DNA of 64,000 nt, from positions 1 through 64,000 of the forward strand of contig JAOZMC010000001.1 in assembly GCA_029934475.1 (NCBI GenBank), in the 5' to 3' direction. Source of the DNA: Arcobacteraceae bacterium. Lineage in GTDB: Bacteria; Campylobacterota; Campylobacteria; Campylobacterales; Arcobacteraceae. The translations under genes and the position numbers were made by a program. Below are positions 13,924-35,849 of this stretch, piece by piece. Below the pieces are notes generated by a model. That model saw nothing but the letters and a program-made list of their open reading frames with translations. It did no database searches and was not told the DNA's origin. Every line of letters begins with the position of its first letter. The stretch's first letter is position 1.

Positions 13924-15111
13924 ATGAAAAATCTCAACACTATGACAATATCTTTGGGCTTTGCTCTGCTTTTGATAGGCTGTGGCGGAGGCGGTGGCGG
14001 CGGAGCTAGTAGCGGTGGCTCTACTGCTTCTACAGATGGCTATGATATACAAGTGCCGTATATTATCACGGTCAAGACAGACAATAACGGCACCAGCGAA
14101 GACCACGAGTTTGCTATAGGCACAATACCGCAGCTTTATAGATACAGTTATCAAGTTGATTGTAACTACGATGGTAGCGACTTTGAGGCAACTGCCACAA
14201 ATATAGATGGCAACTACAGTTGCCAATACGACAGTGCTGGAACATATAATATAGCTATAAAAGGTGTTTTTCCTGCTATTTATCAAGGGCTTGGTAATAA
14301 TGCTCAAGCAAATGGCGACAACTTGAAGCTTTTGGATATAAAACAGTGGGGCGATAATGTATGGCTAAGCATGCTCCAAGCATTTGCAGGATGTGAAAAT
14401 ATGGTTATGAGTGCTACAGATACACCAAATTTGAGCCAAACCAAAAGTATGGTAGCTATGTTTATGAATGCAAAAAAGTTCAATGGCAATATTTCTAGCT
14501 GGGATGTATCAAATATAGATAGTATGAATACTTTATTTGATGGTGCTTTGGTTTTCAACCAAGACATAAGCAGCTGGGATGTATCAAATGTAGATGATAT
14601 GAGCTGGATGTTTAGCAGTGCTATAGCATTTGATCAAGACATAAGCAACTGGGATACATCAAAAGCCACAGATATGAGCGGTATGTTTGCCGAAGCTACG
14701 AGTTTTTCACACAATATAACTAGTTGGGATGTTTCAAATGTAGAAAATATGGCATACATGTTTGTAGGTATGCCATCTTTTAATCAAGACATAGGTGCTT
14801 GGGATGTTTCAAGTGTAGAGAGTATGAGTTGGATGTTTAATAGTGCTTCAAGCTTTGATCAAAATATAAGTGATTGGGATACTTCAAAAGTTAAAGACAT
14901 GAGTGCAATGTTTCAAGATGCAACATCTTTCGATCAAGATATAGGCGGGTGGGATACTTCAAAGGTGACAAATATGTCACAAATGTTTTATAAAGCTGAA
15001 AGCTTTGATCAAAATATAAGCAGTTGGGATGTATCAAATGTAGCTACATTTGATATTTTTCACCTTGATAGTAATTTAACCGAAGCAAATGTGCCATCAA
15101 AACTTTGGTGA
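13924..15111 (+). CDS. BspA-like lipoprotein with DUF285 repeats
   Basis: A 395-residue surface-type protein. It has a lipobox LLIGC (Cys20), a glycine/serine spacer, a beta-rich region to about residue 160, and then eight tandem 25-residue DUF285 repeats of the form F-Q-D-I-S-W-D-V/T-S-V-M-MF (about 186-385). The repeats are 75 nt long and contiguous. DUF285 repeats are known from Mycoplasma surface proteins and BspA-type leucine-rich adhesins, so a role in contact or adhesion is likely but unproven. A TACAAT box and AAAGGA precede the ATG. Confidence 0.85.
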
Positions 15112-32579: not shown

Positions 32580-33665
32580 ATGAAAATAGATTTTATAGAC
32601 CTACAAGCACAGTATCAAAAATACAAAACAGACATAGACACACAGATACAGCAAGTGCTAGATAGCTCTGTGTATATCGGTGGCAAGGTGGAGCAACTAG
32701 AACAAAAGTTATCTGTATGGACAGGCTCCAAACACACTATAGCATGTAGCAGTGGCACAGATGCTTTGGTGCTAGCTCTCATGGCTATAGATATCCAGCC
32801 AGGTGACGAGGTTATCACTACGCCTTTTACATTTATAGCGACAGCTGAAGCTATAGCACTGCTAAAGGCACGACCAGTATTTGTAGATATACAGGAGCGA
32901 ACTTACAACATAGATGTGTCTAAAATAGAGGAGAAAATCACCTCAAAGACCAAAGCTGTGATACCTGTGTCGTTGTTTGGGCAGATGGCAGATATGGACG
33001 GTATCAACTCAATAGCCAAAAAATACAATCTCAAAGTGATAGAAGATGGAGCTCAAAGCTTCGGTGCTACATATATGGGCAAACAATCATGCACCACTAG
33101 CGATATGGGGACTACTTCGTTTTTTCCGGCTAAGCCACTGGGATGCTATGGTGATGGTGGAGCTATATGGACAAACGATGACGAGCTAGCATCCAAGATA
33201 CGAGTGCTACTAAACCATGGACAGACCAAACAATATGTTCACAGCCACATAGGTATCAACGGCAGACTTGATGCTTTGCAAGCAGGAGTGCTAATAGCGA
33301 AGCTTGGTTATTATGCAGATGAGCTAAACAAACGACAAAACATAGCTGACAAATACAACAAAAAGCTACAAAATGTCACAACCCCGTATGTGCCAGATGG
33401 CTACACTAGCGTATGGGCTCAATACTGTATAAGAGTGAAAGATAGAGATATGATGATGGACAAGTGCAAAAAAAACGGAGTGCCTACAGGAGTCTATTAT
33501 CCAATTCCTCTCCATATGCAAGATGTGTTTGCTTATCTAGGATACAAAAAAGATGACTTTCCAGTATCTTTGGCAGTATCAAAAGATATATTAGCTTTGC
33601 CTATGTCGGCATTTTTGACACAAGAGCAGCAGGATTATATTATAAAGGTGGTAAATGATGATTAA
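32580..33665 (+). CDS. DegT/DnrJ/EryC1-family sugar aminotransferase
   Basis: A 361-residue PLP enzyme that aminates a keto-sugar nucleotide. It has the FIDLQAQY N-terminus, CSSGTDAL near residue 58, EDGAQSFGA near 158 and the Schiff-base lysine in SFFPAKPLG near 186. It most resembles WbpE-type 3-aminotransferases for UDP-sugar synthesis in O-antigen or glycan assembly. The next gene, a Gfo/Idh dehydrogenase overlapping it by 11 nt, fits a WbpB-WbpE-like oxidation-amination pair, but the sugar is unknown. Confidence 0.88.
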   Translation: MKIDFIDLQAQYQKYKTDIDTQIQQVLDSSVYIGGKVEQLEQKLSVWTGSKHTIACSSGTDALVLALMAIDIQPGDEVITTPFTFIATAEAIALLKARPVFVDIQERTYNIDVSKIEEKITSKTKAVIPVSLFGQMADMDGINSIAKKYNLKVIEDGAQSFGATYMGKQSCTTSDMGTTSFFPAKPLGCYGDGGAIWTNDDELASKIRVLLNHGQTKQYVHSHIGINGRLDALQAGVLIAKLGYYADELNKRQNIADKYNKKLQNVTTPYVPDGYTSVWAQYCIRVKDRDMMMDKCKKNGVPTGVYYPIPLHMQDVFAYLGYKKDDFPVSLAVSKDILALPMSAFLTQEQQDYIIKVVNDD

Positions 33666-34548
33666 AGTTGCAATAGTAGGTATGGGTGTGATGGGACAAA
33701 ATCACTACAGAGTCCTACAAAAGATACAAGGAGCAAAGATAGTAGGACTGTGCGACCCTATAGCAGACGACAATTTTGCTCACAAGCTATACAAAGAGTT
33801 AGATGATATGCTAGGTGCTATAACTATAGATGCTGTCATCATAGCTACTCCTACATTTTTGCACAAAGAAGTAGCACTGAAGTGTATCGACAAAGGTATC
33901 CACCTGTTTATAGAGAAGCCTGTAGCATCAAATGTAGCAGATGGCAAAGAGATACTAAAAGAACTAGACAAAAAAGGACTCAAAGCAGTAGTAGGGCATA
34001 TAGAGCGGTTTAACTCTGTAGTCCAAGCACTCAAAGAGGAGATAAAGGACAAAGAGATATATAGCATAAATATCACAAGAATAGGACCCATACCTCCGCG
34101 AATTGCTGATGTAGGTATATTGACCGACTTAGCAGTGCATGATATAGACTTGATACGATTTATCACCCAAAAAAGTATTTTAAACAAAAGTATATTTAAG
34201 TCAAAAAAGATCCACAACCACCACGAAGACAATGCCATACTATCGTTTGCTATGGACGATGATATAGTCGCATCTATCACGACAAACTGGCTGACACCGT
34301 TTAAAAAACGGACAGTAGAAGTAGCATGCAAAGAAGCATACTACGAGGCAAATCTGATGTCCCAAGAGTTGCTAGAGTATTCCAACTTCAAAGCGGACAA
34401 TTCGTTTGTCATGCGAAACTGTTTTGTGAAAAAGCGAGAGCCTTTATACGACGAGCTAGATAGTTTCATAGAGTATATCCGGACAGGACACAAGCCTATA
34501 TCTGCTACTATAGAGGATAGTATAGAGACACTACAGACCGTCCAGTAG
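33655..34548 (+). CDS. Gfo/Idh/MocA-family oxidoreductase
   Basis: A 297-residue NAD(P)-dependent enzyme with the Rossmann motif VGMGVMGQNH near residue 8 and the EKPVA signature near 91. It probably oxidises the sugar nucleotide that the upstream aminotransferase amidates. It overlaps that gene by 11 nt; ATG codons at 33655 and 33658 are both possible starts. The C-terminus stops soon after IEDSIETLQ, a little earlier than usual for the family. Confidence 0.85.
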   Translation: MMIKVAIVGMGVMGQNHYRVLQKIQGAKIVGLCDPIADDNFAHKLYKELDDMLGAITIDAVIIATPTFLHKEVALKCIDKGIHLFIEKPVASNVADGKEILKELDKKGLKAVVGHIERFNSVVQALKEEIKDKEIYSINITRIGPIPPRIADVGILTDLAVHDIDLIRFITQKSILNKSIFKSKKIHNHHEDNAILSFAMDDDIVASITTNWLTPFKKRTVEVACKEAYYEANLMSQELLEYSNFKADNSFVMRNCFVKKREPLYDELDSFIEYIRTGHKPISATIEDSIETLQTVQ

Positions 34549-34642
34549 ATTGTTTTTATCTCTGTTTCGCTTGGAACAGTTTTTGCTATTGTTGAGATAT
34601 TTATAGATTTTGACTCTTTTTGTGTTATATTTATATTATTTG

Positions 34643-34650: not shown

Positions 34651-34675
34651 AACAAACTTTTAAAAAGGAGTCTTT

Positions 34676-35335
34676 TTGATAAAACAAACAAACAAATTGA
34701 TAGGGGGGGGGCTTTTAGCTCTTTCTTTAGTCGCAAGTAGTGCAGTAGCAAAAGATGGTGTGTATATAGGCGTAGGTCTAGGAATATCTATTATGGGCGA
34801 TAGTGAAACAACATACGCCGACAAAGACTTAGCTATCATAAATACAGATATAAAATATAAGCTAGGGACTGCTACTTCATTTTTGGCAGGATATAAGTTT
34901 TCAAGCTTTAGAGCAGAACTTGAGAGTTTTTCTCACTCAAATGATTTTAATGATGTTTATGCATTCAAAGTAAGAAAAATTCCAGGAGTCACAGGCAAAG
35001 CTACTGCTTCTACTGTTTTGATAAACGGCTATTATGACTTCAAAGTAGACAATCCAAAGCTCACACCATATGTAGGGATTGGCTTCGGTTCTACGACTTT
35101 CAAATTCAACTACAAAAATGATGGGGATACTTTGATTGACGATGATGACAATGTAGTTTCTGTGGCTATTACTGGCGGAGTTGATTTTGCTATTGGAGAT
35201 AAATTTTCTGTAGGTGTTGGAGGCAGACATATAGAATACGGCGATGCTAAACTTAAAGATCCTGGTGACAACATGGTAACTATAAGCACTGGCTTAAGTT
35301 CTGCTTTTTTGATTACTGCTAAATACAAGTTTTAA
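34676..35335 (+). CDS. Outer-membrane beta-barrel protein with poly-G tract in the signal peptide
   Basis: A 219-residue protein with a signal peptide (cleavage likely after SSAVA, residue 25) and an opacity/OmpA-type eight-stranded barrel: alternating strands, glycine/aromatic spacing (YIGVGLGIS, FLAGYKF, PYVGIGFGSTTF) and a C-terminal aromatic, KYKF. The start is TTG at 34676 behind AAGGAG. Codons 10-12 lie in a run of nine G (34703-34711); the present length is in frame, so the gene is ON as sequenced. A change of one G would end translation early. A strong hairpin follows the stop. Confidence 0.85.
   Translation: MIKQTNKLIGGGLLALSLVASSAVAKDGVYIGVGLGISIMGDSETTYADKDLAIINTDIKYKLGTATSFLAGYKFSSFRAELESFSHSNDFNDVYAFKVRKIPGVTGKATASTVLINGYYDFKVDNPKLTPYVGIGFGSTTFKFNYKNDGDTLIDDDDNVVSVAITGGVDFAIGDKFSVGVGGRHIEYGDAKLKDPGDNMVTISTGLSSAFLITAKYKF
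34703..34711 (+). repeat. G9 homopolymer (candidate phase-variation tract)
   Basis: Nine consecutive G bases lie inside the signal-peptide codons of the barrel protein. In AT-rich Campylobacterota, G tracts of eight or more are the classic slipped-strand contingency elements; this is the only such tract I saw in the window. Confidence 0.8.
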
Positions 35336-35396: not shown

Positions 35397-35654
35397 CTAA
35401 GCTACAACTTCAAGCGAAACTTTCAACATATTTTCTATATTTAGATGATAATCCAAACTTTGCCACTCGACCCTCGTGTCTAAACATATCAATCTATAAT
35501 CTTTGAGCTGTGCTATAGTAGCTTTTTGCAATGGTTCGTACCATTGTATGTGCGTGGATATGATCCTGCCGTCTTCTAATTTTACATGAATATACTCATC
35601 GTCAAAGCGAACTTCCTTGCCTTTAATCAAACCATTTATTTCAAATCCTTTCAA
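35397..35654 (-). CDS. DUF2442 domain protein
   Basis: An 85-residue protein matching the DUF2442 pattern: V-FDDEYIHVKLEDGRIIS, then WYEPLQKAT, then WQSLDYHLNIENML. DUF2442 proteins often lie next to DUF4160 proteins, as here, and the pair is suspected to be toxin-antitoxin-like; no activity is established. The start is uncertain: TTG at 35654 gives this length, and a later TTG is possible. It follows the DUF4160 gene after 12 nt. Confidence 0.75.
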   Translation of the reverse strand: MKGFEINGLIKGKEVRFDDEYIHVKLEDGRIISTHIQWYEPLQKATIAQLKDYRLICLDTRVEWQSLDYHLNIENMLKVSLEVVA

Positions 35655-35666
35655 ACATATTTTTGT

Positions 35667-35849
35667 TTATTTTATAATCTCTATAGCCGACTTCAAATCC
35701 TTTGGCTTCAAATAATTTTGAACTACTTTCAAATTTTCCAATTCTATCTTAGCAAAGCCGTCACTTCTTGCGATATGTATATGTTTCGGCTCATGCTCAT
35801 TTGCATAAAAGAAAAATTTAAAACCATTTTGATTTAATAAAGTTGGCAA
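35667..35849 (-). CDS. DUF4160 domain protein
   Basis: A 60-residue protein with the DUF4160 signature: GFKFFFYANEHEPKHIHI, then AKIELENLKV. The start is TTG at 35849 behind AAGGA. It is the first gene of a two-gene unit with DUF2442. The role is unknown. Confidence 0.78.
   Translation of the reverse strand: MPTLLNQNGFKFFFYANEHEPKHIHIARSDGFAKIELENLKVVQNYLKPKDLKSAIEIIK

Follow-up and report, generated by a model that had tools for sequence, protein, structure and literature searches.

A tract of nine consecutive G bases in the signal-peptide code of a small outer-membrane barrel gene is probably a contingency locus that undergoes slipped-strand phase variation. The gene is located in a 64-kb stretch of DNA, here called the window, which was analyzed as a whole. 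The window is part of genome G000 (1.52 Mb, 68 contigs), which we compared with three further members of its genus, G001, G002 and G003. The genus is a member of the Arcobacteraceae. This placement follows from a TrpD search, which returned a 91% identical copy in the Arcobacteraceae MAG GMC7.metabat2.111; the barrel protein matches the same homologs in that record as in G001, which makes the MAG a member of the genus.

The G9 tract and the barrel reading frame

A sequence-only reading of the window had placed nine G bases in codons 10-12 of a barrel gene that is in frame at this length. The sequence agrees, with the tract at positions 34703-34711 of a 219-codon ORF. The features of the locus are as follows.

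34665-34670, + strand: ribosome-binding site (RBS) AAGGAG, 5 nt upstream of the TTG codon
34676-35335, + strand: outer-membrane β-barrel gene (OMP_b-brl, Opa/OmpW-like small barrel), 219 aa, TTG start, ON at G9
34676-34750, + strand: putative signal peptide MIKQTNKLIGGGLLALSLVASSAVA, read by eye from the sequence; the layout in the G002 ortholog is alike
34703-34711, + strand: poly-G tract G9, the proposed slippage site, codons 10-12 (GGG GGG GGG)

Cleavage of the signal peptide after AVA is predicted by eye. The sequence ATAGGGGGGGGGC is in frame with nine G's. The computed product of the ORF is 13 aa at G8, 219 aa at G9 and 21 aa at G10. The locus thus combines a G:C homopolymer of about eight or more near the 5’ end, an early stop upon a change of one base with restoration by multiples of three, and an excess over chance. 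In the proposed mechanism, replication slippage would add or remove one G in the tract. At G9, and likewise at G6 or G12 (multiples of three), the full barrel precursor would be synthesized and exported. With any other number of G's, the ribosome would reach a stop codon after no more than about 20 codons, still in the signal peptide, and no barrel would be produced. The assembled genome, which contains one sequence of the locus, would represent the ON state. Nine G's are few for a tract that switches, which counts against a switch. In the pathogenic Neisseria, the modal poly-G length is 9 (PMC5953494).

The first 36 nt from the start contain the whole tract, so it is within reach for effects on initiation. 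It might therefore tune translation stepwise, as the target of a regulatory RNA or as part of a structure near the start, rather than turn it ON and OFF. A model for such tuning is found in Helicobacter pylori, where RepG acts on the G-repeat leader of tlpB (PMC8295292). The barrel tract, however, is located inside the reading frame, and a change of one base truncates the protein anyway. We consider stepwise tuning very improbable.

Identity of the barrel protein

The proposal that the gene encodes a barrel was supported by a match to Pfam PF13505 (OMP_b-brl) and by an aromatic C-terminal end, ...AKYKF. The match covers residues 13-203 and scores 48.4 bits, with a cut-off of 28.7 and an E value of 1.6e-12. 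Outer-membrane barrels end in Phe, and Phe is the last residue of this protein. NCBIfam models for OmpW, PorG and the rickettsial Adr matched weakly, all below their cut-offs. Single-sequence AlphaFold prediction of the mature barrel gave a pLDDT of 29.5 and no usable model, and a PDB sequence search returned one marginal match (9nh2, E=0.011). With an unusable structure prediction and a marginal PDB match, it is the profile match that identifies the protein as a barrel. A phage origin of the barrel was rejected, as it has no PHROG match.

Comparison of the tract with chance and with the G002 ortholog

Chance does not account for the G9 tract. We derived expectations for both strands from Markov models of order 1-4 built on the window. 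They give 0.001-0.016 runs of at least nine G's per window, and 0.03-0.38 per 1.52-Mb genome. The genome contains 12 tracts of at least eight G's, 10 of which have at least nine. On the + strand of the 64-kb window, the G9 is the single G-run of at least six, and the longest C-run is 6.

It could be argued that the barrel is made constitutively, and that a Gly-Gly-Gly conserved in the signal peptide is written GGG GGG GGG by happenstance, with no useful switching rate. In the window’s long ORFs, GGG makes up 12% of Gly codons, which corresponds to about 0.0017 per triplet for three consecutive GGG codons. None of the 14 other Gly-Gly-Gly triplets in these ORFs is written GGGGGGGGG (GGG-GGG-GGG). 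The nine further tracts of at least nine G's in the genome, mostly at gene starts, also argue against happenstance. Support for a constitutive barrel comes from the nearest ortholog, in G002, which shares 58% identity and aligns from the signal peptide through the final residue. It keeps the three Gly residues, and its tract is interrupted synonymously as GGGGGAGGGG (GGG GGA GGG), a single third-codon base apart from the G9 tract. This tract appears too interrupted for much slippage, and it is the best counter-evidence to the switch. Gly3 is conserved and the pure G tract is not, and Gly3 may be retained for the signal peptide. The tract may have arisen in this genome or may have been interrupted in G002; the two sequences are compatible with both. 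None of the remaining barrel homologs found within the genus carries a tract. Taken together, we consider a constitutive barrel unlikely and a switch probable. Our confidence in the switch is not higher mainly because the tract is interrupted in the G002 ortholog and absent from the other barrel homologs of the genus.

Poly-G tracts in the genus

Tracts of at least eight G's are also found in the other members of the genus, with 10 in G001, 9 in G002 and 4 in G003. For comparison, we counted tracts in 21 genomes that represent 19 further genera of the Arcobacteraceae. Twenty of them, with sizes of up to 3.5 Mb, contain 0-5 such tracts, and one (G007) contains 13. Many tracts in the genus are located at the 5’ end of lipoprotein ORFs with a good RBS, and some of these proteins contain DUF285-like repeats, as judged by eye. 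None of the four tracts in G003 is at a 5’-end ORF start with an RBS.

The reading frames of several of these genes depend on tract length. Two G9 loci in G000 are ON, encoding 253 aa (contig C47) and 196 aa (C59). A G18 locus (C53) is OFF, and its G001 relative with G12 is ON. A G8 locus (C16) is OFF; its ortholog in G001 has G9 and is ON, with 270 aa, and its ortholog in G002 has G11 and is OFF. Orthologous loci with G7 and G9 have flanks identical at 67/70 and 101/110 positions with no gaps. The upstream flank is identical at 65/70 positions between G18 and G12 loci, and the flanks at 66/69 between G8 and G9 and at 63/69 between G10 and G14. Because the tracts vary more than their surroundings at orthologous loci, slippage in a live contingency repertoire is indicated, and phase variation at these sister loci is well supported by the comparison. 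About a dozen poly-G switches, mostly at the 5’ ends of genes for lipoproteins or other surface proteins, would turn a clone into a mix of surface types.

Phase variation, as the sequence-only reading had proposed, is the best explanation for the G9 tract, and it is backed by the tracts in surface genes across the genome and by the length differences at sister loci. For the barrel itself, we infer in vivo slippage of the tract, ON/OFF expression and a selective reason for it. Errors are frequent in long G-runs, and contig ends are close to several of the other tracts, so the assembly could have miscounted a homopolymer whose real length is fixed at another value. At G9, however, 219 codons are intact and align with the ortholog to the last residue, and tracts of differing length occur in G000 and its three relatives alike. 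Such a miscount has little probability.

Lipoproteins on contigs C16, C20, C29, C30, C47 and C53 of G000, and their relatives in G001 and G002, form a family with long common N-terminal stretches (e.g. MKNITRQHRVV.SATNTP.NGGGG...). The poly-G precedes the lipobox, the mature parts are quite different, and some copies are located at contig ends. The shared N-terminus with its poly-G looks like a reusable switch cassette. Two loci of G000, L046 (C14) and L049 (C21), have tracts away from obvious gene starts. These include a G6CG9 close to where a gene of the opposite strand ends, and a G14 with a G9 68 bp away on the other strand.

Tracts in short leader ORFs

In four unrelated families, the tract is located in a short ORF upstream of the gene. 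These families are represented by C54 of G000, with a G11 tract, and its paralogs in G001, by C65 of G000 with C96 of G001, by C62 of G000, and by C77 of G001. The loci are L053 (C54), L058 (C65) and L055 (C62) in G000, and L093, L094, L098 and L095 in G001; their downstream genes mostly encode lipoproteins. In one of the three phases, the leader ORF is about 32-51 codons long, and its TGA stop shares bases with the ATG start of the gene that follows (ATGA). The other two phases mostly lead to an early stop. As a control, we examined 18 genes that have an RBS and an ATGA start and lack a long overlapping upstream frame, and the frame was equally open in 1/18. Such an arrangement in four of four leader families is unlikely to occur by chance, with the reservation that the class was chosen after being seen.

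The arrangement suggests that the leader tracts may mediate phase-variable translational coupling. The literature searched contains no direct precedent for phase-variable translational coupling, or for phase variation in Arcobacter. The closest case in that literature is pil1 of Streptococcus gallolyticus, where slippage of a leader repeat also alters expression of a downstream surface gene (PMC3894217). In pil1, the length of the leader affects a transcription terminator, whereas the ATGA geometry here suggests translational coupling. Should the leader tracts function in the way indicated by their geometry, they would represent a mode of phase variation without a match in the papers searched.

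MutS7 and tract density

The genome paper of A. butzleri reported zero poly-GC tracts, named this lack a distinguishing feature and guessed at mismatch repair as the cause (PMC2147049). A MutS of 985 aa is encoded in most Arcobacteraceae genomes. It has domains I, III and V, and an HNH-type motif was recognized by eye at its C-terminus. These features fit MutS7, a lineage also found in octocoral mitochondria (PMC3166940). No MutS7 was found in G000, G001, G002 or G003, nor in most tract-rich clades of the order.

Among 300 genomes of the order, the median tract density is 1.0 per Mb with MutS7 and 12.0 per Mb without it (p=3e-28). The corresponding densities are 0.75 and 5.8 by genus (p=2e-7), and 0.36 and 3.1 within the Arcobacteraceae (p=0.008). 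These p-values, like the following one, ignore shared ancestry, and the comparisons are subject to clade confounding. Three big clades contribute much of the signal; without them the densities are 1.0 and 2.1 (p=0.0009). In family f6, tract density does not differ between genomes with and without MutS7. Despite having MutS7, five genomes contain 24-76 tracts of at least eight G's, far above most of their congeners: G239 (genus g10), G122 and G131 (f18), and G242 and G184 (f16). Loss of MutS7 as the full explanation was ruled out by the tract-rich genomes G122, G131, G239 and G242 that have it, and by the lack of a difference in f6. We read the loss as permissive, and not sufficient, for poly-G tracts. 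The numbers of DnaQ/RNase_T proteins, an idea of the A. butzleri paper, were rejected as a cause. With 2-3 copies, the genus does not stand out from several relatives that have few tracts. The 300-genome survey makes the guess made for A. butzleri specific and testable, in that loss of a self-contained MutS7 would permit poly-G switches and be insufficient for them.

A combined reading is possible, if somewhat less than probable. The genus would be an Arcobacteraceae lineage that lost MutS7 and built its own repertoire of surface switches, in which the leader-ORF tracts gate coupling through ATGA and the barrel gene is one classical switch. Loss of MutS7 would let tracts persist across the order.

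Comparison with known contingency loci

The barrel locus appears to combine an ordinary mechanism with an unusual place. It is a candidate for a translational contingency locus with poly-G in signal-peptide code, and its closest counterparts are opa and pilC of Neisseria. In pilC, the tract is located in the part that codes for the signal peptide. As at the G9 locus, its repeat unit is G and it is genic, with a length range of 9-20 (PMC5953494). Unlike the small barrel here, PilC is a large pilus-tip protein. The opa genes also encode a small surface barrel and have a slippage-prone repeat in the signal-peptide code that determines ON or OFF by frame (PMC3960869). Their repeats are CTCTT pentamers, in contrast to the single-base G9 here, and the similarity between Opa and the barrel is at the superfamily level only (Pfam OMP_b-brl).

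Within the same phylum, oipA (hopH) of H. pylori encodes an outer-membrane protein with a 5’ repeat and frame-shift switching (PMC10564699). It differs in having a CT dinucleotide repeat and in encoding a larger protein of the Hop family. Helicobacter canadensis and Campylobacter resemble the genus in having many homopolymer tracts at the 5’ ends of genes, and in H. canadensis tract length variation was found at the read level (PMC2823697). These bacteria are host-associated. The genus here belongs to the Arcobacteraceae, a family whose reference, A. butzleri, was reported to have no poly-GC tracts (PMC2147049).

Poly-G contingency loci are best known in Campylobacter, Helicobacter and Neisseria, which are host-bound. 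The genus here, from the Arcobacteraceae and with small genomes, is a natural test case, as it has 4-12 tracts per genome and many of these are in surface genes. More interest attaches to the repertoire, to the leader-ORF variant and to the association with MutS7 than to the barrel gene alone.

Neighboring genes

Two genes for sugar-nucleotide enzymes are located upstream of the barrel gene. The features of this region are as follows.

32580-33665, + strand: DegT-family sugar aminotransferase, GnnB-like (Pfam DegT family, 376 bits)
33655-34548, + strand: GFO/IDH/MocA oxidoreductase, UDP-GlcNAc 3-dehydrogenase/GnnA-like by family profiles
34562-34579, + strand: terminator-like hairpin CTGTTTCGCTTGGAACAG, then T5, between the GnnA-like gene and the barrel gene
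34610-34639, + strand: promoter-like TTGACT-18-TATTAT, 10/12 matches; such sites occur here at close to the chance rate

The pair looks like GnnB and GnnA, enzymes of the lipid A backbone. In C. jejuni, GnnA and GnnB produce the 2,3-diaminoglucose of lipid A (PMC11123243). Neither protein matched an NCBIfam equivalog above cut-off, and the GnnA-like protein scored 227 bits against NF040723, an archaeal model with a cut-off of 450. The earlier reading had linked the barrel to this pair as a possible modifier of the surface. That link was not sustained: the gap of about 130 bp between the GnnA-like and barrel genes contains the hairpin and the promoter-like site, and the gene upstream of the barrel ortholog in G002 is different (rhodanese-like, by eye). 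The pair is probably unrelated to the switch.

Elsewhere in the window, a lipoprotein gene (13924-15111, + strand) with several DUF285-like repeats, recognized by eye, adjoins fabZ- and lpxA-like genes. Its start, CGGGGGGG, is written in mixed Gly codons without poly-G. Directly downstream of the barrel gene, small adjacent genes with DUF2442 and DUF4160 domains (35397-35849, - strand) recall toxin-antitoxin modules.
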